From: a virus
DNA: 47,776 nt
Virus record (IMG/VR): IMGVR_UViG_3300046492_000240
Coordinates: 1-47,776 of that record
Strand: one strand, 5' to 3'
Below are positions 2,035 to 44,683 of this stretch, in pieces. The position numbers were made by a program, and so were the translations under genes. The notes beneath the pieces were generated by a model. It ran no database searches, was not told where the DNA came from, and saw nothing but the letters and a program-made list of their open reading frames with translations. Position 1 is the first letter of the stretch. Every line of letters begins with the position of its first letter.

Positions 2035-2110
2035 TCCGCATTGGTCAGATGCCAGGCACGGGTGACCAAACCCTGCCAACGACGACAGGCCTGGCATCTG
2101 CCGATGCGGA
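2035..2110. repeat. Long imperfect inverted repeat 3' of the lyase-like gene
   Basis: Arms at 2035-2057 and 2089-2110 share a perfect 12-bp core (CAGATGCCAGGC and its complement). They extend outward to about 22 bp with one substitution and a one-base length difference, around a loop of about 31 nt. On the leftward transcript it would form a large hairpin just after the stop codon at 2149. There is no T run. Confidence 0.6.
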
Positions 2111-2148: not shown

Positions 2149-2823
2149 TTAGGCGTGGGAGATCACAAGATCACTGATGATGCAGATCGAGCCATCCTCC
2201 GCCGGGGTGGCGTCGGTGAAATCGATCTGGTTGTAGACACCGCCGTGGAAGTCGAACACTTGCGAGCTCCAAGAGGCATCGAGCTGCAGATCGCCCGATG
2301 TACCGATGTTGCCGTTGTAGTCCACAGTTACCCGCGCGACGCCGGACGACGCGACTCGAATAGTGACCTTGAACTTCGCGCCGAGCGGAACGCCCTTGAG
2401 CACCGTCGTGTTGACCGGGTCTGTCTGGTTGTAGCTCTGGCGAAAGCCCATAGTGATGTTCCCTTTTTGCCAGAACACCTTGATCGCTGGACTGTCGTCT
2501 CCCTTCACATGCATCTGTGAGATGACGACCTTCTGAGCAGAGTTGACCTTTGTCACGGTCATCTCTTGATAGTTGATGTGTTCGGAAGCACTGGCGAGCG
2601 ACCAGTAGATCGACTCTTTCCATTCGCACCGGGTCCGGTGTGTGCTTTTGCTGGAAGCGCCCTTGGTTGGCGCGGACAGTTGCAGCGAGCCGTCCGGGAG
2701 GACCGTCACAACGCTGGGGAACTGCGCGATGGCTTGGGCTCCGTTGAGCTCAAGTGCAACCGGGTTGGTTGCGGATGTTGCTACCGGTGTTGCGATCGTA
2801 AGATTGCTGATGTTTACAGTCAT
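2149..2823 (-). CDS. PL7 (alginate lyase 2)-like polysaccharide lyase
   Basis: A 224-residue protein with the three landmark segments of polysaccharide lyase family 7 in the right order: an RTRCEW-type version of the R(T/S)E(L/V)R strand (about residue 63), SQMH corresponding to the Q(I/V)H motif (about residue 102), and FHGGVYNQ corresponding to YFKxGxYxQ (about residue 193). The likely catalytic Gln, His and Tyr are present. PL7 enzymes cleave alginate or related polyuronates by beta-elimination. The arginine motif is divergent, so substrate and activity are uncertain. No signal peptide is visible, so it would act after release by lysis or as part of a particle. AGGAG lies upstream of the ATG. 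It follows hairpins at 2880-2921 and ends at a terminator. Confidence 0.7.
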   Translation of the reverse strand: MTVNISNLTIATPVATSATNPVALELNGAQAIAQFPSVVTVLPDGSLQLSAPTKGASSKSTHRTRCEWKESIYWSLASASEHINYQEMTVTKVNSAQKVVISQMHVKGDDSPAIKVFWQKGNITMGFRQSYNQTDPVNTTVLKGVPLGAKFKVTIRVASSGVARVTVDYNGNIGTSGDLQLDASWSSQVFDFHGGVYNQIDFTDATPAEDGSICIISDLVISHA

Positions 2824-2879: not shown

Positions 2880-2921
2880 GATGCGTCTTCCGCATCCCAC
2901 TGCGCACTCTGTGAATGCGCA
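2880..2921 (-). other. Two tandem hairpins upstream of the lyase-like gene
   Basis: GATGCG-TCTTC-CGCATC (2880-2896) and TGCGCA-CTCTGTGAA-TGCGCA (2901-2921) lie between the 2932-3711 gene and the lyase-like gene. The second matches the hairpin at 3967-3989 in loop and flank, with compensatory stem changes, so a structured RNA is likely. Role unknown. Confidence 0.55.
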
Positions 2922-2931
2922 GGAGGATGGC

Positions 2932-3711
2932 TCAGTCAAATCCGTAGCTGAGATCATCAGGGTCACAGTCGATGACCAGCAGCGCGTTGCCGAAGTAGAG
3001 CGATGCAACCATGCGCTCCCACTCGCTTCTGATCTGCATGTTGATCGACACTTTTTTGTCGTCGAGCGAGGCCGAGTAAACCTCACCGAATTCGTCGCAT
3101 TTACGGAAGTGATCTTTGGTTTCGCGTGAACCTTTGATGAGCACATGAAGGTTGTGCTTCAGTTCGTAATCGGTTCTTGCGGATGATCGGTAGCCGCTGC
3201 GCGCCGACTCTTCCGACTGCGGATCGAAATAGATGTGTAGGAATTTCCTGTCCGTGCCGTAACTGTCGCCTTCGCTGATGCGAATTTCTGGCCGCTCCCA
3301 ATGTTCTTCTGCTGCTCGCTCTTTGTGGTCATCAATGAATGCGTTCAGAAGCTTGGTTAGCGAAACCTCTGCGGTGATCAGACCGCCTCCAGTGAGCAGC
3401 TCAGTGATCGTCTTGTCCGCCTGCTCAATGATCGATGAGTGCAGTGCAGCGGCTTCCCACCGCTGCCGAAGAGAGTTCGCAATCAGTGCGTTGTATCGTT
3501 GCAGCTCGAACATGTCGCTCACGTTCGCCGGCAGCGCAGATTTGACCGCCTCTTTGATCGCAGAGCCAAAGTCTCCGTAAGACCGGAAAGTGTCTTGCAC
3601 GACATCCTTGAACAGTTTGTCGACTCCCTCATCGATCAGCTCGCGGGGGCGATCGGATAGGGCATATGCGCTGACACGTTCGGCCAGCAGTTGTTGAAGG
3701 GTTTGTTCCAT
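2932..3711 (-). CDS. Hypothetical phage protein, 259 residues
   Basis: Not recognised. The sequence is mostly helical and hydrophilic in the first 150 residues, then a mixed region with several aromatic strands (KFLHIYFDP near 165, NLHVLIKG near 195) up to the acidic C terminus. No signal peptide, membrane segment or catalytic motif is visible. ATG is preceded by GGAG at seven bases. It sits in the leftward operon between the TAXI/membrane pair and the lyase-like gene, so it is probably an accessory gene acting on the host. Confidence 0.65.
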   Translation of the reverse strand: MEQTLQQLLAERVSAYALSDRPRELIDEGVDKLFKDVVQDTFRSYGDFGSAIKEAVKSALPANVSDMFELQRYNALIANSLRQRWEAAALHSSIIEQADKTITELLTGGGLITAEVSLTKLLNAFIDDHKERAAEEHWERPEIRISEGDSYGTDRKFLHIYFDPQSEESARSGYRSSARTDYELKHNLHVLIKGSRETKDHFRKCDEFGEVYSASLDDKKVSINMQIRSEWERMVASLYFGNALLVIDCDPDDLSYGFD

Positions 3712-3744
3712 AAAGATGCTCCGTGCGGATGGGTTTGTGTTGAA

Positions 3745-3857
3745 GCTGCATTGGAATGTCGGTCCTGACCAAGATGCCTAACTACGTCCGCCCGTTCGCA
3801 TACAAACAGTTGGCCTGGATCAGCTTTTTTCATGGGGCGCCGACATTCCGATGCAGC
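3745..3857. repeat. 18-bp inverted repeat around a 77-nt centre
   Basis: GCTGCATTGGAATGTCGG (3745-3762) and CCGACATTCCGATGCAGC (3840-3857) pair over 18 positions with one mismatch that would be a G-U wobble in RNA. The arm shares GCATTGG/CCGATGC with the repeat at 2035-2110. It lies just upstream of the 2932-3711 gene on the leftward transcript. The stretch 3712-3998 has no gene I can call firmly. Confidence 0.6.
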
Positions 3858-4002
3858 CTCTTTCGAGGTGATCGGGAAGGTCTCCAACCTTCTGACGGGG
3901 ACTCTGATTGTTTACATTGCCGTAGGCCCGTGAAGCGGCAATTCCGGTGAGGCTGACACCATCCCGCTGCCCACTCGCTGAATGGGCAGAAGTGATGCTC
4001 AC
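3820..4002 (-). CDS. Possible 60-residue protein coupled to the 49-residue membrane protein
   Basis: GTG overlaps the TGA of the preceding gene as GTGA, the same coupling seen elsewhere in this arm. The product is polar, Ser/Gly-rich and without motifs. Its codons run through the hairpin at 3967-3989, so the stretch may instead be untranslated structured RNA. Treat as tentative. Confidence 0.3.
   Translation of the reverse strand: MSITSAHSASGQRDGVSLTGIAASRAYGNVNNQSPRQKVGDLPDHLERGCIGMSAPHEKS
3967..3989 (-). other. Hairpin of the covarying pair
   Basis: CTGCCCA pairs with TGGGCAG around a CTCGCTGAA loop; on the minus strand GGGATG follows. Compared with 2901-2921 the loop and 3' flank are nearly the same while the stem has changed C-G pairs to G-C pairs, which argues for conserved RNA structure. 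Confidence 0.5.
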
Positions 4003-4148
4003 CGGCTGAACCGGAACCACATCACCATGCCCAGGAGCAGGCCAGACAGAACGCCTACCAGGTAGGCAATGGATACGATGTGTATAGCGCTGGCGGCGAC
4101 GAGAAGAGCGAAGCCGAGCAGGAGAACGGCAAGTAGGCGGCTGATCAC
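3999..4148 (-). CDS. 49-residue two-helix membrane protein coupled to the TAXI protein
   Basis: Starts MISRLLAV at a GTG that overlaps the TGA stop of the TAXI-like gene (GTGA), so it is translated by re-initiation. It contains two hydrophobic helices (about 4-21 and 24-43) and ends in basic residues WFRFSR. It is too small to be a TRAP transporter subunit. The strict coupling suggests it acts with the periplasmic protein encoded just before it, for instance as a membrane docking partner; that is inference. Coding is supported by the coupling and by uninterrupted hydrophobic composition. Confidence 0.6.
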   Translation of the reverse strand: MISRLLAVLLLGFALLVAASAIHIVSIAYLVGVLSGLLLGMVMWFRFSR

Positions 4149-5029
4149 CGCACCACCTTCACAACACTGTTGATCCCCTTGTCGACTGCTCGGCGAACCT
4201 TTTTCGCTTCTTCCGGCTGCATGCTTTTCAGGTAATCATTGTTGAACACGATCTGAGCGCGCAGGCAGTAGGTGTCAGGCTTGCCCATGGTCGATGTTTC
4301 CAGGCCGCTCTGGCCTTCCTTGTCGACGGCGCAGTGCGTGTACAGCGGATTGTTGTTGGCGTCCTTGGCATCCTCGAACGAGTTGTCGTTCACCTCGCCG
4401 ATCATGATCTGCTTACTGAAGTCGGCAGTGATGTCGCTCGGGATCTTCCCGGACCGGCCGATGTACAGCATTCCGGCGATTTCGATTCGCACGCCGGCCT
4501 TCGTGACGTAGCCCTGGGCGACCGCCTCAGCAGCGCTGTACCAGTCGTCAAACTCGACGATGCGCGCACCTTCATAGTCCTTGTCGGTCTTGATCCAGTT
4601 GCGCACCGTGACCAGGGCGCCGGAGCCGGACACCGCGGCGAACGCGTACTTGGCCGCCACGCTGTCCTTTTCCATCTTGCCGAAGTCGTCGACACCGGCC
4701 TTGCCGTGCAGCCAGTAGATCACCTCGGTGTGCGCGTCGCTGACCTTGAGGTCGGCGGGCATTGGCAGGCTGATCACCGCATCGTTTTGGATGACGGCGA
4801 TATCGCACACCCCATCCTTTAGCTTCTCGGCGTTCTCGACGCTGCCGCCGGTGTTGATCACCTTCACCACGCCGCCGTCCTGCTTGGCGATGGTGTTGCC
4901 GATGCTGGTGCCCAGGCTTTCATAGAAGCCGCCTTCGCCGCCGGTGCAGAAACGCAGGATTGGCGGTGCCGCGCTGGCGGCGGCTGATACACTCAGCAGC
5001 ACGGCCAGCAGTAACGCTTTCGATTTCAT
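4145..5029 (-). CDS. TAXI-family TRAP-type periplasmic solute-binding protein homologue
   Basis: A 294-residue precursor with a clear signal peptide (MKSKALLL, hydrophobic core, SAAASA followed by APP; cleavage near residue 20). The mature part opens with the pattern typical of TAXI proteins: ILRFCTGGEGGFYESLG, then VVKVINTGGSVENAEKL and a CDIAVIQND segment, all ligand-lobe elements of family NMT1/TAXI binding proteins. Three cysteines late in the protein may form disulfides. The ATG is placed by GAGGA six bases upstream; an ATG ten codons earlier has no site. No DctQ/DctM permease genes are nearby, so ordinary uptake is unlikely. A hairpin leader precedes it and a 49-residue membrane protein is coupled behind it. 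Confidence 0.75.
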   Translation of the reverse strand: MKSKALLLAVLLSVSAAASAAPPILRFCTGGEGGFYESLGTSIGNTIAKQDGGVVKVINTGGSVENAEKLKDGVCDIAVIQNDAVISLPMPADLKVSDAHTEVIYWLHGKAGVDDFGKMEKDSVAAKYAFAAVSGSGALVTVRNWIKTDKDYEGARIVEFDDWYSAAEAVAQGYVTKAGVRIEIAGMLYIGRSGKIPSDITADFSKQIMIGEVNDNSFEDAKDANNNPLYTHCAVDKEGQSGLETSTMGKPDTYCLRAQIVFNNDYLKSMQPEEAKKVRRAVDKGINSVVKVVR

Positions 5030-5058
5030 GGGTGTTCCTCGGGTTGGGGGATTTCCCA

Positions 5059-5090
5059 ATGCAGCCTGTCGCCAAGCTGCATCAGTGAAA
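5059..5090 (-). other. Hairpin leader element, copy 1 (before the TAXI gene)
   Basis: ATGCAGC (5059-5065) pairs with GCTGCAT (5076-5082) around a loop that reads TTGGCGACAG on the transcript, flanked by ACGATTTCACTG upstream and TTGGGAAATCC downstream. The element sits 30 bases before the start codon and recurs before the 5094-5279 gene. Confidence 0.55.
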
Positions 5091-5093
5091 TCG

Positions 5094-5279
5094 TCAGGCT
5101 GCAGCCTTGCAGTCAGCCGCCGTCATTCGTTGCCCATCTTCCAGCTCAACCACGCATACGCCGTTGCGATATGCGCGCTCAGTGCTGAGCCGGTTAGCCT
5201 CGCGAATGCAGGCGCCGAGGTCGCTATTGGTGAACACCTGCAGCTCGCCGCGGAGGTTGATGCGGATGACCTTGTTCAT
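5094..5279 (-). CDS. Small conserved-looking phage protein, 61 residues
   Basis: Starts MNKVIRINLRGELQVF; a compact alpha/beta small protein with no recognisable domain. ATG is preceded by GGAG at eight bases; an upstream in-frame start lies inside the hairpin leader and is less likely. It is the first gene of the leftward operon after the long structured leader, a position often taken by small host-takeover or regulatory proteins. Function unknown. Confidence 0.6.
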   Translation of the reverse strand: MNKVIRINLRGELQVFTNSDLGACIREANRLSTERAYRNGVCVVELEDGQRMTAADCKAAA

Positions 5280-5303
5280 GTCGTTTTCTCCAGTGGATTC
5301 CCA

Positions 5304-5332
5304 AAGCACCCGGTCGCCCAGGTGCTTCAGTG
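5304..5332 (-). other. Hairpin leader element, copy 2 (before the 61-residue gene)
   Basis: AAGCACC pairs with GGTGCTT (5321-5327); the transcript loop reads TGGGCGACCG. Upstream ACGATTCACTG and downstream TTGGGAATCC match copy 1 although the stem bases differ completely, which indicates that structure and flanks are what is conserved. Confidence 0.55.
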
Positions 5333-5469
5333 AATCGTTCTGGGTTGCACCGCGACCCGCTACTGGCGTCGGTCGCGGCTTGATGCGTCAGCCGTGTTGG
5401 CCCGTTGCCCGCTGCTGATTGCAGGGCTGGCCGGTCGTCTTCGGGGTGGCTACGGGGCTTCCTGTTCAC

Positions 5470-5817: not shown

Positions 5818-5879
5818 ATAACTCAAGTTATGAAGCTGATAATAACCTAGGTTTGTTTTGTGTCAATAACCAAGGTTAT
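5818..5879. promoter_or_regulatory. Left operator: three CI/Cro sites 24 bp apart
   Basis: Sites at 5818-5831 (ATAACTCAAGTTAT), 5842-5855 (ATAACCTAGGTTTG) and 5866-5879 (ATAACCAAGGTTAT) fit the palindrome ATAACNNNNGTTAT. Their starts are exactly 24 bp apart, so they lie on similar faces of the helix, and they cover the leftward promoter. The same consensus recurs at 7926-7985 beside the repressor gene, giving an OL/OR pair as in lambda. Confidence 0.8.
5839..5866 (-). promoter_or_regulatory. Leftward early promoter (PL-like)
   Basis: On the minus strand TTGACA (5866-5861), a 16-bp spacer and TATTAT (5844-5839) make a near-consensus sigma-70 promoter. Two of the operator sites overlap the -35 box and the spacer/-10 region, and the third lies at the start point, so repressor binding would shut it off. 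Confidence 0.75.
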
Positions 5880-5895
5880 TTATTTTTGAATAGGT

Positions 5896-5937: not shown

Positions 5938-6189
5938 TCAGTCTTCTTTCGGTACGGTCCAGAAGACCTGAACGTGACCGTCGTCACGGTGAGCGACGGT
6001 CACATTGTCATTCTCGGCAATCTCGTCCAGCAGTTGATCCCAGTCCTCTGGCCTGTCCGTAGGTAATCGCTCCAGCAGCGCGGCCTTGGCTTTCTGCGCT
6101 TTGGGAGAATTGATGATCGCCTGGACGCGCATGCCGAGCATGCCGTAAGTGGTCTGAGCTGCTGGGGGAATCGAGTTTGCCTTTGCCAT
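5938..6189 (-). CDS. DUF1654 family protein under LexA control
   Basis: An 83-residue protein recognised as DUF1654, a family found mainly in Pseudomonas: the segments YGMLGMRVQAIINSP, a Lys/Ala-rich helix, and RPEDWDQLLDEIAENDNV with a C-terminal strand pair are characteristic. Its function is not established. ATG has GGAGG six bases upstream. A perfect LexA box (6205-6220) lies just upstream, so it should be induced by DNA damage together with the prophage switch. It is monocistronic, with its own terminator. Confidence 0.8.
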   Translation of the reverse strand: MAKANSIPPAAQTTYGMLGMRVQAIINSPKAQKAKAALLERLPTDRPEDWDQLLDEIAENDNVTVAHRDDGHVQVFWTVPKED

Positions 6190-6204
6190 GTGTACCTCCG
6201 TTTA

Positions 6205-6220
6205 CTGTATGTGCATACAG
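6205..6220. promoter_or_regulatory. LexA box
   Basis: CTGTATGTGCATACAG is a perfect 16-bp palindrome matching the LexA consensus CTGTN8ACAG. A plausible minus-strand promoter (TTGCGA, 17 bp, TACTGT) overlaps it, so bound LexA would block the DUF1654 gene. Confidence 0.85.
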
Positions 6221-6284
6221 TATTTCAGGGCGGGAAATTTCGCAATACGGATGGAGTACAAATGTGCTCTTTTGGATCGCGGGC

Positions 6285-6309
6285 GTAAAAAAGCCCGCGC
6301 ATGGCGGGC
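6285..6309 (-). terminator. Terminator of the 6320-7204 gene
   Basis: Same hairpin and T run as at 5896-5920, identical over 25 bp. It lies just after the stop codon of the coiled-coil gene, separating it from the LexA-regulated gene. Confidence 0.75.
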
Positions 6310-6319
6310 TTGTTAGGGC

Positions 6320-7204
6320 TCAGCCCTGCTTGGGAGCAGGAGCTTGGGGGGCAGGGGCAGGGGCCGGTGCAGATTTTAGCTGCCTCAGCAGCTCCTGAGT
6401 GTCCTTCAAGACTTGTTCGTTCGCAGCTTGTGTCTTCTGCGCTTCTTGCCCCGAATTAAAAATTCCCGAAGCACTGCTGATGATCGTCGAATTCACGCCC
6501 CAGACACCAAGGACTATTGCGATGCCGATCGTCAGCATGCCACCAAGCGTCGCCCAATTTGAATGCCGCACCAGCTGAACGCTATCAGTCATCTTCGTTT
6601 CGAAGCCATCAACCTTCGTTTCGACGCCGGAGATCTTTGTAGCGATCGCGTCTAATTTCGAATCGATAACCTTGTCTCGATCGTCGATCCTAGACATCAC
6701 AGCGGCGCTTCTTTCGGCGTGTACGTTATCCCGCGCATCCAGCTCTCGCTGGAACGCCTCATGGCGAATGACGAGCTCTTTCCTCAAAAGCTCATCGCGG
6801 AGCTCAAGCTCCTTTCGGTAATTCGTGATCTCGGTCATAGCTTCAGTATTGTCCTGATCTGGTGCGCTGTCCACGGTTCGACCACCAGATCTGGTCCAGC
6901 CTTGAGCCTCTAGATCTTCAACTTTTACCCAGCCCTCAGGTGGTCCTAGGGACTCAATCCAGGCTAGTTGCTGTTCCCGTGCAGATGCTATCGACGCTTT
7001 GTAGCGCCTCATCGCCTCTTCAACGCTTAGCGGGGCCTCTGCGGCCGGCTCATTTTTATTGTCGAGGGCTCGAGTAATGCGACTCAAGGATTTGCCTAAG
7101 CGCCACTCTGCGCCGCGACCAGCTGGTTTTTCCGCATCTGTCTTGGCCGGACCATTTTGTTTTGCATGAGGCTTTCCTAGGGTGCCTTTAAACCGGGCCG
7201 CCAT
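6320..7204 (-). CDS. Membrane-anchored coiled-coil protein next to the repressor
   Basis: 294 residues in four parts: a basic N terminus (1-60), a helical region, a long charged coiled coil (about 125-210, with repeated ITKISGVETKVDGFETKM-type heptads), one transmembrane helix (about 218-238), and a Pro/Ala-rich tail of alternating AP. The start at ATG with GGAG eight bases upstream is preferred over an ATG ten codons earlier. It is read in the same direction as cI and directly after it, the place of rex genes in lambda, so expression in the lysogen and a role in superinfection exclusion are plausible. No homologue is recognised. Confidence 0.65.
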   Translation of the reverse strand: MAARFKGTLGKPHAKQNGPAKTDAEKPAGRGAEWRLGKSLSRITRALDNKNEPAAEAPLSVEEAMRRYKASIASAREQQLAWIESLGPPEGWVKVEDLEAQGWTRSGGRTVDSAPDQDNTEAMTEITNYRKELELRDELLRKELVIRHEAFQRELDARDNVHAERSAAVMSRIDDRDKVIDSKLDAIATKISGVETKVDGFETKMTDSVQLVRHSNWATLGGMLTIGIAIVLGVWGVNSTIISSASGIFNSGQEAQKTQAANEQVLKDTQELLRQLKSAPAPAPAPQAPAPKQG

Positions 7205-7235
7205 TTTGCGTTCTCCTGCTTTCTCAGGGCCCAAT

Positions 7236-7913
7236 TCAAATTCGACCTAAAACCTTGCTAGGCCCAAGAATGGCTCCAACATAGTGAATGGTCTGTATCT
7301 GCGTCCACGGGATCGTCACGCGCTCATATGCTGAATTGATCGACATCAGGCTTACGCCCTCATCGTTCTGAAACAGCAGCTCCTTGACCATGCTCTGCTC
7401 ATCAGCTGTCGTGACCATTACGTATTCGCCTGGCACGAGCCTGTGGTTTGGCTCGCACACAGCAACCCAGCCACTCCGGATCGCTGGTGCCATCGAGTCG
7501 CCGCGCAGCAGTAGAGCGTAAGCATCGGTGTCGCGGGACCAGGTCTCAACCCAGCCTCCAGCGTCCTCAAGGCCAACCCAGTGGCCGTCCGGGCCCATCT
7601 GTGCAGTGCCCATGATGTCGATCCTTCGAGCGGCTGTGGTGATAGGCGGGCCGGGTTCAACGTTGGATTCGTCAACGGCGGGTTTCGAGTGGTGTGCTCG
7701 GCCGTTTTCGCCCGTCGTCAACCATTCCGCTGTCACGCCTAGGGCGCGACCTATATCCACCATCTTCTTAGAGGTGGCGTTGCGGCCGCTTTCCAGGTGC
7801 TGGATTGTCACTTGGCTGACGCCCGCGCGCTCGGCCAGCTGCGCCTGACTCAGCTGCAGTTCCGTCCGCCTACCCAGTATTCGATCTTTGAGCGTTTCGA
7901 GCTTCGTATTCAT
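7236..7913 (-). CDS. CI-type S24 self-cleaving repressor
   Basis: 225 residues. The N-terminal helix-turn-helix (about 18-45, LSQAQLAERAGVSQVTIQHLESG) is of the XRE type. The C-terminal peptidase S24 domain has the LexA-like features: probable cleavage bond A118-G119 in LEDAGGW, nucleophile S140 in GDSM, and catalytic K177 in MVKEL. It should hold lysogeny by binding ATAACNNNNGTTAT sites and be inactivated by RecA-stimulated self-cleavage. The ATG is placed by homology; only a poor AAGG lies one base upstream, and an operator ends 12 bases upstream, so a leaderless or short-leader message is likely. Upstream in-frame codons would run through the operators. Confidence 0.9.
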   Translation of the reverse strand: MNTKLETLKDRILGRRTELQLSQAQLAERAGVSQVTIQHLESGRNATSKKMVDIGRALGVTAEWLTTGENGRAHHSKPAVDESNVEPGPPITTAARRIDIMGTAQMGPDGHWVGLEDAGGWVETWSRDTDAYALLLRGDSMAPAIRSGWVAVCEPNHRLVPGEYVMVTTADEQSMVKELLFQNDEGVSLMSINSAYERVTIPWTQIQTIHYVGAILGPSKVLGRI

Positions 7914-7925
7914 GCCTTGAAGGGT

Positions 7926-7985
7926 AAAACACACGTTATCGGCACTCAAATAACATATGTTTGCCTTGTCCATAACTTGAGTTAT
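7926..7985. promoter_or_regulatory. Right operator: three CI/Cro sites
   Basis: Sites at 7926-7939 (AAAACACACGTTAT), 7950-7963 (ATAACATATGTTTG) and 7972-7985 (ATAACTTGAGTTAT) fit the same palindrome as the left operator, with start spacings of 24 and 22 bp. They fill the gap between the divergent repressor and cro genes. Confidence 0.8.
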
Positions 7986-7988
7986 CAT
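7961..7988 (+). promoter_or_regulatory. Rightward early promoter (PR-like)
   Basis: TTGCCT (7961-7966), a 16-bp spacer and TATCAT (7983-7988), with the strongest operator lying across the spacer and -10 box. It would drive cro, the CII-type gene and replication genes. Confidence 0.65.
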
Positions 7989-8016
7989 TCCGTGTATGAC
8001 TCATAGGGGCACGAAT

Positions 8017-8259
8017 ATGCCGAAGAAAGAAAGACCCGTCGAAAGGGTGGTCCGTTTGGCGGGCGGTCAAGCAGAGCTGGCCCGCCGCTGCAACACAAGT
8101 CAGCCACGTATCTGGCAGTGCATTCATCGCAATCAGCGCGTTCCAGCGGATCTTGTGATCCCTTTCGAGCGCGCCGTGGCTGGCCAAGTAACCCGATACG
8201 AGCTGCGTCCCGATCTGTATCCGGACGACAAACCGTCGACTTCGGCCGTTGCCAGCTGA
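8017..8259 (+). CDS. Cro-like (YdaS-type) repressor
   Basis: 80 residues with a helix-turn-helix in the first 50: VVRLAGGQAELARRCNTSQPRIWQC is typical of the YdaS/Cro group of phage regulators. The ATG preceded by AGGGG at seven bases is preferred over one at 7996, which has no site. It is divergent from cI across the shared operators and is the first gene of the rightward operon. By position it is the lytic repressor that turns cI off. Confidence 0.8.
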   Translation: MPKKERPVERVVRLAGGQAELARRCNTSQPRIWQCIHRNQRVPADLVIPFERAVAGQVTRYELRPDLYPDDKPSTSAVAS

Positions 8260-8325
8260 GCCGGTAGAAACATTTTGCAACGCGTGATGGCACGCAGCCA
8301 CATAAACAAATTTGAGGTTTTAGGG

Positions 8326-15822: not shown

Positions 15823-15906
15823 ATGACGCTGATCTCTACCGATCACCTGACGGTGTGCGGAACCACAGCCAGGGTGGGCCCTCGGGCAAGGCCTGGACGT
15901 CGATAG
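15823..15906 (+). CDS. Very short reading frame after the first late terminator
   Basis: 27 codons beginning MTLISTDHL with GGAG eight bases upstream, then a premature stop. The start resembles the opening of GH19-type phage endolysins, so it might be the stub of a lost gene, but nothing recognisable follows. The rest of 15907-16055 holds only the next terminator. Confidence 0.25.
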   Translation: MTLISTDHLTVCGTTARVGPRARPGRR

Positions 15907-16014
15907 CCGGAAGTGCGGCGAACGGAAATAACACCGGCAGTCAAAGCGCCCGCAGCTCTGATGCTCCGGGTGGCTTTGGCGGGCAGCGTGGGAAGACACG
16001 CAAACCATTTCGAG

Positions 16015-42108: not shown

Positions 42109-42321
42109 ATGCCTTTTATCGTGATCAATGGCAGCAACTCGTTCGACCCTAACAACCAGGTCGAGTACGCATCCGAAGCAGAGGCTGATGCCAAAGCGCG
42201 CGAGATTCTCGGCGCCTTCCCCCAGTCGCTGATTCGTACCGCGCAACTGATGAAGACGTACCGCGCCCAGGTGACGATCACGGCAGAAGACGTTCCTGAG
42301 CAGGGCCTGGCACCTAACTGA
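42109..42321 (+). CDS. Small protein of 70 residues after the fibre genes
   Basis: MPFIVINGSNSFDPNNQVEYASEAEADAKAREIL; beta then helical, acidic. GGAG lies six bases before ATG. It could be a fibre chaperone by position, but no motif supports this. Its end overlaps the convergent acyltransferase by eight bases. Confidence 0.6.
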   Translation: MPFIVINGSNSFDPNNQVEYASEAEADAKAREILGAFPQSLIRTAQLMKTYRAQVTITAEDVPEQGLAPN

Positions 42322-43498
42322 CGGTTGTTCTGCCGATCACAGAATCAGGTCGAGTTCTGAATGCAAGGCGGCCGAACTTGTTCGCGAGTTTCACTGCGTT
42401 GTCATCTACGAATCTGGCGAACGGAATCGCCACCACAATCGAAACCAGCAGCACCGCCAATGTTGCCGCCCCCGCGCGGTAAAACAAGTTAAATGCCTGT
42501 AAGTGGGTGAAGACGAACACGCCTACCGATGAGAGGACGACTGTGTGAAGCAAATAAAGAGAGAACGACTTTGCTCCCAACCACACGAAGGGCTTGAACG
42601 AGAAGAATCTTGATACGCTATTGTCAGCCACTGCTACCCAGACTACAAGCAGTGCGCCAAGCGCCGTCGGAGCGTAATACATGGCACCAATATTCTGTTC
42701 AATTCCAATGATGAAATTATATGCGGAGGTGCAGGGTCTTGCCCCACCCAAGAACAGACCGATAACCATGGCCGATGTGTGCGTCACAGGGTTGCGGAAT
42801 TTTTCACCCGCTTTATTCAAATAGGCGCCTGCAAAGAACAAAGCATAGAACGCAGCATTAGCATGGTCGATTCTTAGGATGATATAGACGACCGGAATGG
42901 TGTAGACCCATCCGAAGTTAGACCTTCCGAAAAGTGCTAAGTAAGCGAAAAGTAGCATCGAACCTAAGAATTCGATACGAATAGTCCATAACACATAATT
43001 GTAAGTCTGGTTGCCTTCTATCAAAGACTTCCAAACTCCATCTACTAGAGCATTTGCAAGCACGGGCTCGCCTTGGTAAGCCTGAGTTATGAACCCCGGT
43101 AATTCGTTGGTCTCGATCTTCAGCAGCCCCATCTTCATCATGGCGTAGCAGACAAGTATCGAAGCGGCCACAGGTATAACGAGCCTTATGTAGCGTTTGA
43201 CTGCAGCGATTTCTAAACTTTTGCCATTGCCTGAAAAGTAAGATTTCGACAAGACGTAACCGCTCATGGCGAAGAAAATGCAGACAGCGAATCCCCCGTT
43301 GTAAAGGGTACGAGGAAAGTGAACTGCAATTGTTTCCCAGTGCTGTTTTATGAATTCCGGATTGCAGTTCTGCAAGTACGGGTAAAAGGTAAACACGCAG
43401 TGTGAGAGGACGACCATCAACGCCGCTAGGCCTCGGAGCCCTTCGAGTGCATTGTTTTTTCCGGCGGACTGCGTCAAAAGACCTGTCTTGATGGTCAA
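42314..43498 (-). CDS. Acyltransferase 3 family membrane protein (OafA/YrhL-like)
   Basis: 394 residues with about ten membrane helices and the family opening ALEGLRGLAALMVVLSHCVF, where the His is the expected catalytic residue, then IFFAMSGYVLSKSYF. Such enzymes acetylate O-antigen or other surface glycans. Phage-borne copies change the LPS receptor of the lysogen (lysogenic conversion). TTG start with GGAAGG eight bases upstream. The gene is visibly less GC-rich than its neighbours and reads against the late operon, both signs of a recently gained moron. Confidence 0.88.
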   Translation of the reverse strand: MTIKTGLLTQSAGKNNALEGLRGLAALMVVLSHCVFTFYPYLQNCNPEFIKQHWETIAVHFPRTLYNGGFAVCIFFAMSGYVLSKSYFSGNGKSLEIAAVKRYIRLVIPVAASILVCYAMMKMGLLKIETNELPGFITQAYQGEPVLANALVDGVWKSLIEGNQTYNYVLWTIRIEFLGSMLLFAYLALFGRSNFGWVYTIPVVYIILRIDHANAAFYALFFAGAYLNKAGEKFRNPVTHTSAMVIGLFLGGARPCTSAYNFIIGIEQNIGAMYYAPTALGALLVVWVAVADNSVSRFFSFKPFVWLGAKSFSLYLLHTVVLSSVGVFVFTHLQAFNLFYRAGAATLAVLLVSIVVAIPFARFVDDNAVKLANKFGRLAFRTRPDSVIGRTTVS

Positions 43499-43613
43499 GG
43501 TTTTTGCCTTCCCTGGTACATGTTGTTGTTTGATTTTCGAATTGTATCAGAGGACACACATTCACAGCACTATGAAAGAACCGCGGCTTCATGACGTGTG
43601 CTTGGATTATTTC

Positions 43614-43637
43614 GCCCGCTCAGTGCGGGCTTTTTTT
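43614..43637 (+). terminator. Intrinsic terminator before the endolysin
   Basis: GCCCGC-TCAGT-GCGGGC followed by seven T; CTGGAG of the endolysin follows. Confidence 0.78.
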
Positions 43638-43652
43638 CGTCTGGAGAAATTG

Positions 43653-44078
43653 ATGTACGTCCCTGAAAAAGATCGTGATGTGCTTGCGCGCACCCTGTGG
43701 GGCGAAGCGCGCGGGGAGGGGCTGGCGGGTATGGTGGCCGTGGCCTGGTCGATCCGCAACCGTGTCGACGACGGCAAGGACAAATCATGGTGGGGCGAGG
43801 GTTACACCGGTGTCTGCCAGAAGCCGTACCAGTTCAGCTGCTGGAACAAGAACGACCCGAACTATCCATACCTGAGTGGCGCGAAGCCGATCCCCGCGGC
43901 TGAGTTCACGATGTGTCGTCTCGCTGCCGAGCAGGTCATTGGTGGGCTGAAGCCTGACCCAACCGGCGGCGCGACTCACTATTACGCGACCACCATGCCG
44001 AAGCCACCGGCCTGGGCTGCGAAGGCGAAGCAGACGCTGAAGCTCGGGCACCACATCTTCTTCAGGGACGTGCCATGA
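43653..44078 (+). CDS. Endolysin, SleB-type cell wall hydrolase (Hydrolase_2)
   Basis: 141 residues. ARTLWGEARGEGLAGMVAVAWSIRNRV with catalytic E18 is the Hydrolase_2/SleB lytic transglycosylase core; YQFSCWNKNDPN and GATHYYATTMPKPPAW are the other family segments. No signal peptide, so it needs the holin at 16997 to reach the murein. ATG has GGAG eight bases upstream. Coupled to the second spanin gene by ATGA. Confidence 0.9.
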   Translation: MYVPEKDRDVLARTLWGEARGEGLAGMVAVAWSIRNRVDDGKDKSWWGEGYTGVCQKPYQFSCWNKNDPNYPYLSGAKPIPAAEFTMCRLAAEQVIGGLKPDPTGGATHYYATTMPKPPAWAAKAKQTLKLGHHIFFRDVP

Positions 44079-44683
44079 GCCCAGCCGCTGCGCTTTACCT
44101 GAAGATCGGCGGAGTGCTGGCGGTCCTGCTCATCATCGCGTCGGTTCTCTACGGTGCCTATCACCACGGCGAATCGGTGGCCGATGCGCGCTGGCAGCTG
44201 AAGTGGGCTGATCAGCAGACGCTACAGGCGAAAGGTCTCGCCGCCGCCACGACCGAAAACCGAACCGAAGAACAGCGCCGCCAGACGGTGGTCAACCAGG
44301 TGGGAAATGATGCGAGACAACAAAAGGCTGTTGCGACTGCTGACGCTGTCAGTGCTGATGCTGCTGGCGACCGGGTGCGCGACCAGGCAGGAAAACTGGC
44401 TGCCAGCGCAAGTTGCACCACCGGCGATCCCGGCGCTTCCCAGCGAAGCGAAACAGCCACTCGCGCCGCAATGGTGCTCTCCGACCTGTTCCAGCGCGCT
44501 GACAAAAGAGCGGGAGAACTGGCAAAAGCTTATGACGCCGCCCGAATAGCGGGATGGGCCTGCGAGCAATCTTACAAGTCAGTAGCGGGCGATCGTGGCG
44601 GGCAACAGAGATTGAACAGCCTCTATCAGCGTATTGATAGGCCATGGCTTCTGAAGGTAGGTCACGCCCTCCGGAATGGATGA
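44075..44683 (+). CDS. DUF2514/Rz-like inner-membrane spanin (second set)
   Basis: 202 residues: N-terminal anchor (about 8-28), then a long Ala/Gln-rich coiled coil typical of DUF2514 proteins, and a GWACEQSY segment near 160 where such proteins usually end. The last 35 codons run into sequence antisense to the response regulator, so the natural C terminus may have been replaced near the prophage's right end. The Rz1 gene is wholly nested inside. Confidence 0.8.
   Translation: MSPAAALYLKIGGVLAVLLIIASVLYGAYHHGESVADARWQLKWADQQTLQAKGLAAATTENRTEEQRRQTVVNQVGNDARQQKAVATADAVSADAAGDRVRDQAGKLAASASCTTGDPGASQRSETATRAAMVLSDLFQRADKRAGELAKAYDAARIAGWACEQSYKSVAGDRGGQQRLNSLYQRIDRPWLLKVGHALRNG
44307..44549 (+). 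CDS. Rz1-like spanin lipoprotein nested in the DUF2514 gene
   Basis: 80 residues with lipobox ATGC (C24) after a leucine-rich signal, then a Pro/Ala-rich stretch (QVAPPAIPALP) and ALTKERENWQKLM at the end. Read in the +1 frame relative to the surrounding gene. Gives a second complete spanin pair. Confidence 0.8.
   Translation: MMRDNKRLLRLLTLSVLMLLATGCATRQENWLPAQVAPPAIPALPSEAKQPLAPQWCSPTCSSALTKERENWQKLMTPPE

Follow-up and report, generated by a model that had tools for sequence, protein, structure and literature searches.

The 47,776-nt viral sequence analysed here (the window, meaning this whole stretch of DNA) codes for a PL7 alginate-lyase-like protein that belongs to a discrete, largely phage-borne subfamily under purifying selection, found here only in Pseudomonas and its phages. 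The novelty of this subfamily is its life style, as it is phage-borne, placed in an early operon and not part of the virion. The reading that we favour, and consider reasonably probable, is that of a soluble non-virion enzyme that would be made early in infection, be released at lysis and cleave an alginate-like matrix; we infer its activity, substrate, timing, release and benefit from the features described below. The subfamily comprises at least 100 copies and is no one-off, a breadth slightly understated in the earlier note, which had been made from the sequence alone.

An intact ORF encoding 224 aa occupies the interval 2149–2823 on the minus strand, a strand that the earlier note had left unstated, and starts at 2823, directly downstream of a purine-rich ribosome-binding stretch. 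The plus strand of the same interval carries no equivalent ORF.

2149–2823, minus strand: PL7 (Alginate_lyase2) protein, 224 aa, single domain, without signal peptide

The earlier note had called the product PL7 alginate-lyase-like, and both profile comparison and structure prediction bear this out. The Pfam profile Alginate_lyase2 (PF08787) matches the protein with E=8.6e-46 and 157 bits (cut-off 29.7) along its positions 1–225 of 225, which spans the catalytic domain and is a homology far beyond chance. The profile of PHROG 31475 matches over the whole PHROG length (E=1.3e-115); this family is catalogued without function, and the present analysis adds to it the PL7 assignment, the subfamily motif and the place in the early operon. 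Among solved structures, PL7 lyases are nearest in a phmmer search, with PA1167 of P. aeruginosa first (E=9e-9). The AlphaFold2 model, built from 21 aligned sequences that comprise the window protein and its relatives, has a mean pLDDT of 94 and a pTM of 0.90 and is a beta-jelly-roll like that of PL7 crystal structures. A Foldseek search with the model ranks PL7 lyases first, with E=1.6e-17 to PA1167 (PDB 1vav), and VIA-align superposes it on PA1167 with Z 29.2 and an rmsd of 1.7 Å over 207 residues, covering residues 3–224. The best viral matches in a BFVD fold search are giant-virus alginate lyases, which is uninformative on function.

PL7 enzymes share the consensus segments QI(V)H, RXEL(V)R and YFKXGXYXQ, in which Gln neutralises the carboxylate, His is the base and Tyr the acid, while Arg146 of Sphingomonas A1-II' binds the substrate (PMC9345997). 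All three segments, already noticed in the ORF by the earlier note, could be aligned residue by residue: R65-C-E67-W-K69-E stands for RXELR-E, Q103-M-H105 for Q[IV]H and F192-H-G-G-V-Y197-N-Q199 for FKAGxYxQ. Set against the consensus wording, QMH, RCEWK and FHGGVYNQ of the window keep the key residues with changed flanks, and many relatives have QIH. R65, Q103, H105 and Y197 are the equivalents of A1-II' Arg146, Gln189, His191 and Tyr284 and, together with E67 and Q199, are invariant in 97/97 relatives (83 viral and 14 genome copies). The departures from the consensus affect secondary positions only and are K69 at the Arg150 equivalent (RXELR to RCEWK) and H193 at the Lys280 equivalent (FK to FH); in the same 83 viral and 14 genome copies position 69 is Lys in most relatives and Ser, Thr or Met in a few, whereas H193 is invariant. 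The arginine motif had been described as diverged, which holds for its second Arg, replaced by Lys, but not for the first Arg and the Glu, which are invariant, the substrate-binding Arg thereby being kept. Sequence, fold and catalytic residues all place the window ORF in PL7. As far as superposition on PL7 crystal structures shows, neither of the refuting outcomes named in the earlier note, the lack of a jelly roll and a scattered catalytic site, has come up: the Gln/His/Arg/Tyr site, whose residues are all kept, is predicted to come together in space. The protein is an intact PL7 catalytic domain, predicted to be catalytically competent. Since K69 and H193 depart from the consensus, its substrate preference may differ; the beta-glucuronan lyase 7nde shares the same fold, and with its changed subsite residues the window protein may act on a different uronate polymer.

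Two bacterial enzymes are among the closest known counterparts. PA1167 has the same single-domain fold, a similar length and the catalytic Q/H/Y/R, but it is encoded by a chromosomal gene, is only 24% identical and has a second Arg and FK where the window protein has Lys and FH. A1-II' (PDB 2cws and relatives) superposes with Z 26.9 and has the same catalytic residues, R65 being aligned to Arg146; it is likewise 24% identical, but is made as a larger precursor and is a bacterial enzyme used to degrade alginate.

The protein has no signal peptide, as had been claimed: a hydrophobicity scan finds no hydrophobic core in the first 40 residues (the best 15-mer averages only 1.0 on the Kyte-Doolittle scale), in agreement with the model, where residues 8–27 form two strands of the domain. 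Its presentation as an oddity was overstated. Most other PL7s encoded in the same Pseudomonas genomes start directly with the domain (e.g. MIDLATWNLSVPVG...), and PA1167 aligns from its residue 2 with its N-terminus already within the fold. Because chromosomal Pseudomonas PL7s also lack a signal peptide, its absence is typical of the family and no phage peculiarity, and a phage adaptation was rejected as its explanation.

Phage depolymerases are normally sought among tail proteins. The description of this one as a small free protein stands, as it is a single domain of 224 aa that carries no anchoring domain and is encoded outside the tail module, the tail-tip gene lying ~32 kb away in opposite orientation. 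Almost all relatives (94/99) are 223–224 aa long and without tail domain. Neither location in the tail module nor a tail-anchoring fusion, the marks of a tail-spike or virion depolymerase, is found, and a tail-spike origin was rejected on the missing anchoring domain and the wrong module. It is very improbable, given this build and a gene placed in a CI-linked operon, that the enzyme is attached to the virion in spite of its gene location. That reading draws on a review of phage carbohydrate depolymerases, alginate lyases included, that treats them as virion-associated (PMC5380687), and on the putida jumbo phages (PpuM), where the gene next to the distant PL7 (38% identity) codes for a minor tail protein but is read from the other strand.

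The region upstream of the PL7 gene is organised as follows.

7972–7985, no strand assigned: right operator ATAACTTGAGTTAT, between CI and the rightward genes
7236–7988, minus strand: CI-like repressor (HTH and peptidase S24)
5818–5880, no strand assigned: left operator region with ATAACTCAAGTTAT, ATAACCTAGGTTTG (imperfect) and ATAACCAAGGTTAT, palindromes overlapping the promoter
5839–5866, minus strand: pL-like leftward promoter, TTGACA-16-TATTAT, 11/12 consensus positions
5094–5309, minus strand: uncharacterised small ORF of 71 aa that opens the leftward operon
4145–5059, minus strand: operon gene, phrog_6856 / NMT1-like periplasmic-binding family
2932–3711, minus strand: operon gene preceding PL7, phrog_2600, weak HamA-like match

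The promoter is the best sigma-70-like one in the first 9 kb and lies between the CI repressor and the PL7 operon. The operator pattern ATAACNNNNGTTAT occurs five times in the window with at most one mismatch, against 0.3 occurrences expected, and the arrangement of operators and promoter has the same layout as OL/pL and OR of lambda. The three ORFs of at least 70 aa between pL and PL7 (the last three entries above) all point leftward, and no promoter-like site was found on the PL7 strand between 2823 and 5839. The same order recurs in relatives. A profile-guided scan of IMG/VR gave 103 of them, of which 80 were kept; in the 62 viral sequences (window included) where CI was found within the fetched stretch, it is upstream of PL7 on the same strand in 62/62, at a distance of 521 to 5248 bp, many of these contigs coming from related soil samples and being non-independent, with PL7 identities to the window of about 58 to 97%. 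In Pseudomonas genomes 14/14 loci with CI have the same arrangement, within the same range of 0.5–5.2 kb. Several contigs have PL7 as roughly the first gene behind CI, and RecT/RecE follow it in some. The early-operon placement read from the window alone is thus upheld: a CI-linked, operator-covered leftward promoter lies upstream on the same strand, as in a lambda-type pL operon, and supports that PL7 sits in a CI-controlled leftward early operon, from which it would be expressed early in vivo.

Some features of this operon deserve mention on their own. The product of 4145–5059 is an NMT1/TRAP-type substrate-binding-like protein (Pfam NMT1_3), an unusual early-operon cargo for a phage. The HamA-like match of the phrog_2600 protein (E=0.004) is below the Pfam cut-off, and its gene is possibly one of defence or exclusion. 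Between two operon genes lies an inverted repeat of 21 nt (3742–3762 / 3840–3860, spacer 77 nt) that is similar in style to the stem-loop behind PL7.

In lambdoid phages the same operon region typically carries exclusion and anti-defence or anti-restriction genes that act in the cell. The 62/62 placement there, the lack of a secretion signal and the weak HamA-like match of the preceding gene are compatible with an intracellular early function, either as a lyase or as a repurposed sugar-binding jelly roll, that would act on envelope glycan synthesis, superinfection exclusion or defence. Such a role is rather improbable, since none of the catalytic residues is lost, signal peptides are missing from chromosomal PL7s as well, and the inner membrane is where alginate is polymerised, no polymer of it being known in the cytoplasm. 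PADLOC gave no match for the gene, and its assignment as a defence gene was rejected on that ground. A narrower version is less probable still, namely that temperate Pseudomonas phages have retained the subfamily (RTRCEW / Q[IMLV]H / FHGGxYNQ) in their leftward early operon for intracellular action on a uronate-containing glycan or a defence target, rather than as a matrix lyase released by lysis.

The PL7 gene also appears to be mobile, to judge by its immediate surroundings.

2035–2110, minus strand: long stem-loop just 3' of PL7, inverted repeats I7 and I14, fold z=-3.7

Five of the near-identical relatives (L002, L004, L006, L007 and L008) have as their largest block in common with the window ~900 bp at 2036–2937; this block, bounded by the upstream leader and the downstream stem-loop, is common to otherwise different phages and looks like a single-gene module, flanked by stem-loops, that has been exchanged. 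Across 199 Pseudomonas species the matches to the window PL7, among those listed, split into a group of at least 56% identity (about 38) and one of at most 37% that corresponds to ordinary PL7s. The species-wide genome collection yielded 14 relatives, all from Pseudomonas, and the homologues with a named organism are all from Pseudomonas or Pseudomonas phages, except for one unassigned faecal phage. The window virus is a virus of Pseudomonas. Some close copies (83–89% identity) are located on Pseudomonas chromosomes, where MFS transporters and other ordinary genes are their neighbours and neither CI, RecT nor a prophage marker is nearby, which indicates that the gene is useful to bacteria too. 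In a quick tree with SH-aLRT support, phage and chromosomal copies fall into several mixed clades and the jumbo-phage group is separate; this topology requires several moves between phages and chromosomes.

The mobility of the block, which enters phages with differing neighbouring DNA together with its own leader and downstream hairpin, the chromosomal copies and the repeated moves in the tree are what one would expect of a moron, a cargo expressed in the lysogen that would help the host, e.g. by matrix turnover in cell death or dispersal. This explanation is possible but unlikely: PL7 is downstream of a promoter covered by CI operators, with no promoter-like site of its own strand closer than pL, and every CI-bearing relative examined has it behind CI in the same orientation, hence in the leftward operon. 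Mobility, with motif drift at two PL7 consensus positions, could also befit a decaying, non-functional passenger gene. That is hardly credible, as the catalytic residues are invariant, the length is intact in nearly all copies and dN/dS is 0.05–0.16 among closer pairs of relatives (reaching 0.24 in the most distant computable pairs, where dS is saturating). The low values in closer relatives indicate that PL7 function is maintained, and decay of the gene was rejected on them.

The favoured reading, early synthesis followed by release at lysis, brings in the lysis genes at the other end of the window.

43515–44078, plus strand: endolysin-like cell wall hydrolase (PF07486), likely lysis route
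44075–44683, plus strand: spanin-like DUF2514 protein, its putative spanin role resting on position and an N-terminal membrane segment

In the lysogen CI would repress the PL7 gene. Upon induction or infection it would be transcribed from the pL-like promoter within the leftward early operon, and its product would build up in the cytoplasm, where no polymerised alginate is expected. As the protein is no part of the virus particle and would be switched on early, it most likely accumulates in the cell and spills out at the burst, when the endolysin/spanin cassette would set it free together with the progeny. Once outside, it would act by beta-elimination on alginate, or on a Pseudomonas exopolysaccharide that is likewise rich in uronate, with Gln103 and Arg65 holding the C5 carboxylates, His105 as the base and Tyr197 as the acid, and the thinning of the matrix around neighbouring cells would let the progeny spread. 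Pseudomonas is a classic alginate producer. Against this reading, early genes are often shut down late in infection, and one would not obviously choose an early promoter for a protein needed only at lysis. The tail genes are separated from the lysis genes by an oppositely oriented gene (42314–43498, minus) for a membrane acyltransferase (PF01757), a possible O-antigen-modifying lysogenic conversion gene.

PL7 genes occur in other settings in further phages. The jumbo phage Psa21 codes a free 224-aa protein with 52% identity to the window PL7 and the same motifs; it differs in being a jumbo phage whose PL7 gene lies among tRNA genes, without CI or pL context, and the enzyme is unmentioned in the Psa21 genome paper. 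A distant PL7 of phage AH02 (26% identity) is encoded shortly before a holin gene: at 5998–8286 of this phage (L024), PL7 with a C-terminal extension is followed by a gene annotated as esterase, which Pfam does not recognise as such, directly ahead of the holin. This lyase-esterase pair would suit acetylated alginate. Alginate lyase activity was tied to Pseudomonas phage PT-6 and to an unsequenced Azotobacter vinelandii phage with no gene given (PMC5380687, PMC12772287), both phages of the same bacterial family as the host of the window virus. The masses reported, 37 and 30–35 kDa, exceed the ~24 kDa calculated to be likely for the window PL7, so identity with it is not implied. Phages of Pseudomonas and Azotobacter have been linked with this activity for decades without a gene. 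A well-defined, phage-borne PL7 subfamily that is not part of the virion and whose place in the genome can be predicted makes matrix enzymes released by phages a testable question and, if active on acetylated Pseudomonas alginate, would be a source of biofilm enzymes.

The leftward operon carries in addition a repeated leader hairpin.

5297–5335, minus strand: copy 1, covariance model E=4.3e-14
5052–5090, minus strand: copy 2, E=1.2e-14
3960–3997, minus strand: copy 3, E=4.5e-12
2893–2929, minus strand: copy 4, about 70 nt upstream of the PL7 start, E=3.7e-11

The hairpin is 37–39 nt long and has the form NNUC-ACU-11-bp stem-GG-GANN, with a near-invariant U-G pair and a covarying outer stem. 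All four copies are on the minus strand in the leftward operon, with none elsewhere in the 47.8 kb. Its covariance model hits 78 viral loci with 98 matches on the plus strand, every one of which shares the strand of PL7 and nearly every one precedes it; five weak matches on the minus strand mirror strong matches on the plus strand. Chromosomal PL7 loci and sequenced jumbo phages gave no convincing match. Pairing shows strong covariation: in the alignment, which was fitted to the model, 94% of cells are paired, 13/15 pairs are changed on both sides and the score is 0.675 versus 0.176 when shuffled. Seed collection set no identity requirement on the outer two pairs, which in the 13 seeds switch between CA/UG and UU/AA types and are always paired. 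The hairpin has no match in an Rfam search, and it is present in many phages without nearby PL7, only 8 of the 80 pattern-matched stretches holding that gene. It is probably a cis-acting RNA control element of this phage group, e.g. an antitermination site or a protein-binding leader. Elsewhere in the window Rfam recognises a Proteo-phage-1 RNA at 15863–15942 on the plus strand (82 bits, E=1.3e-13). A second hairpin follows the CAUC-type leader hairpin in the window (2913–2872, minus strand; GAUGCG-GAAGA-CGCAUC) and in L002, L007 and L105; it shares the GAUG of the first, and the two could therefore be alternative, switch-like structures.
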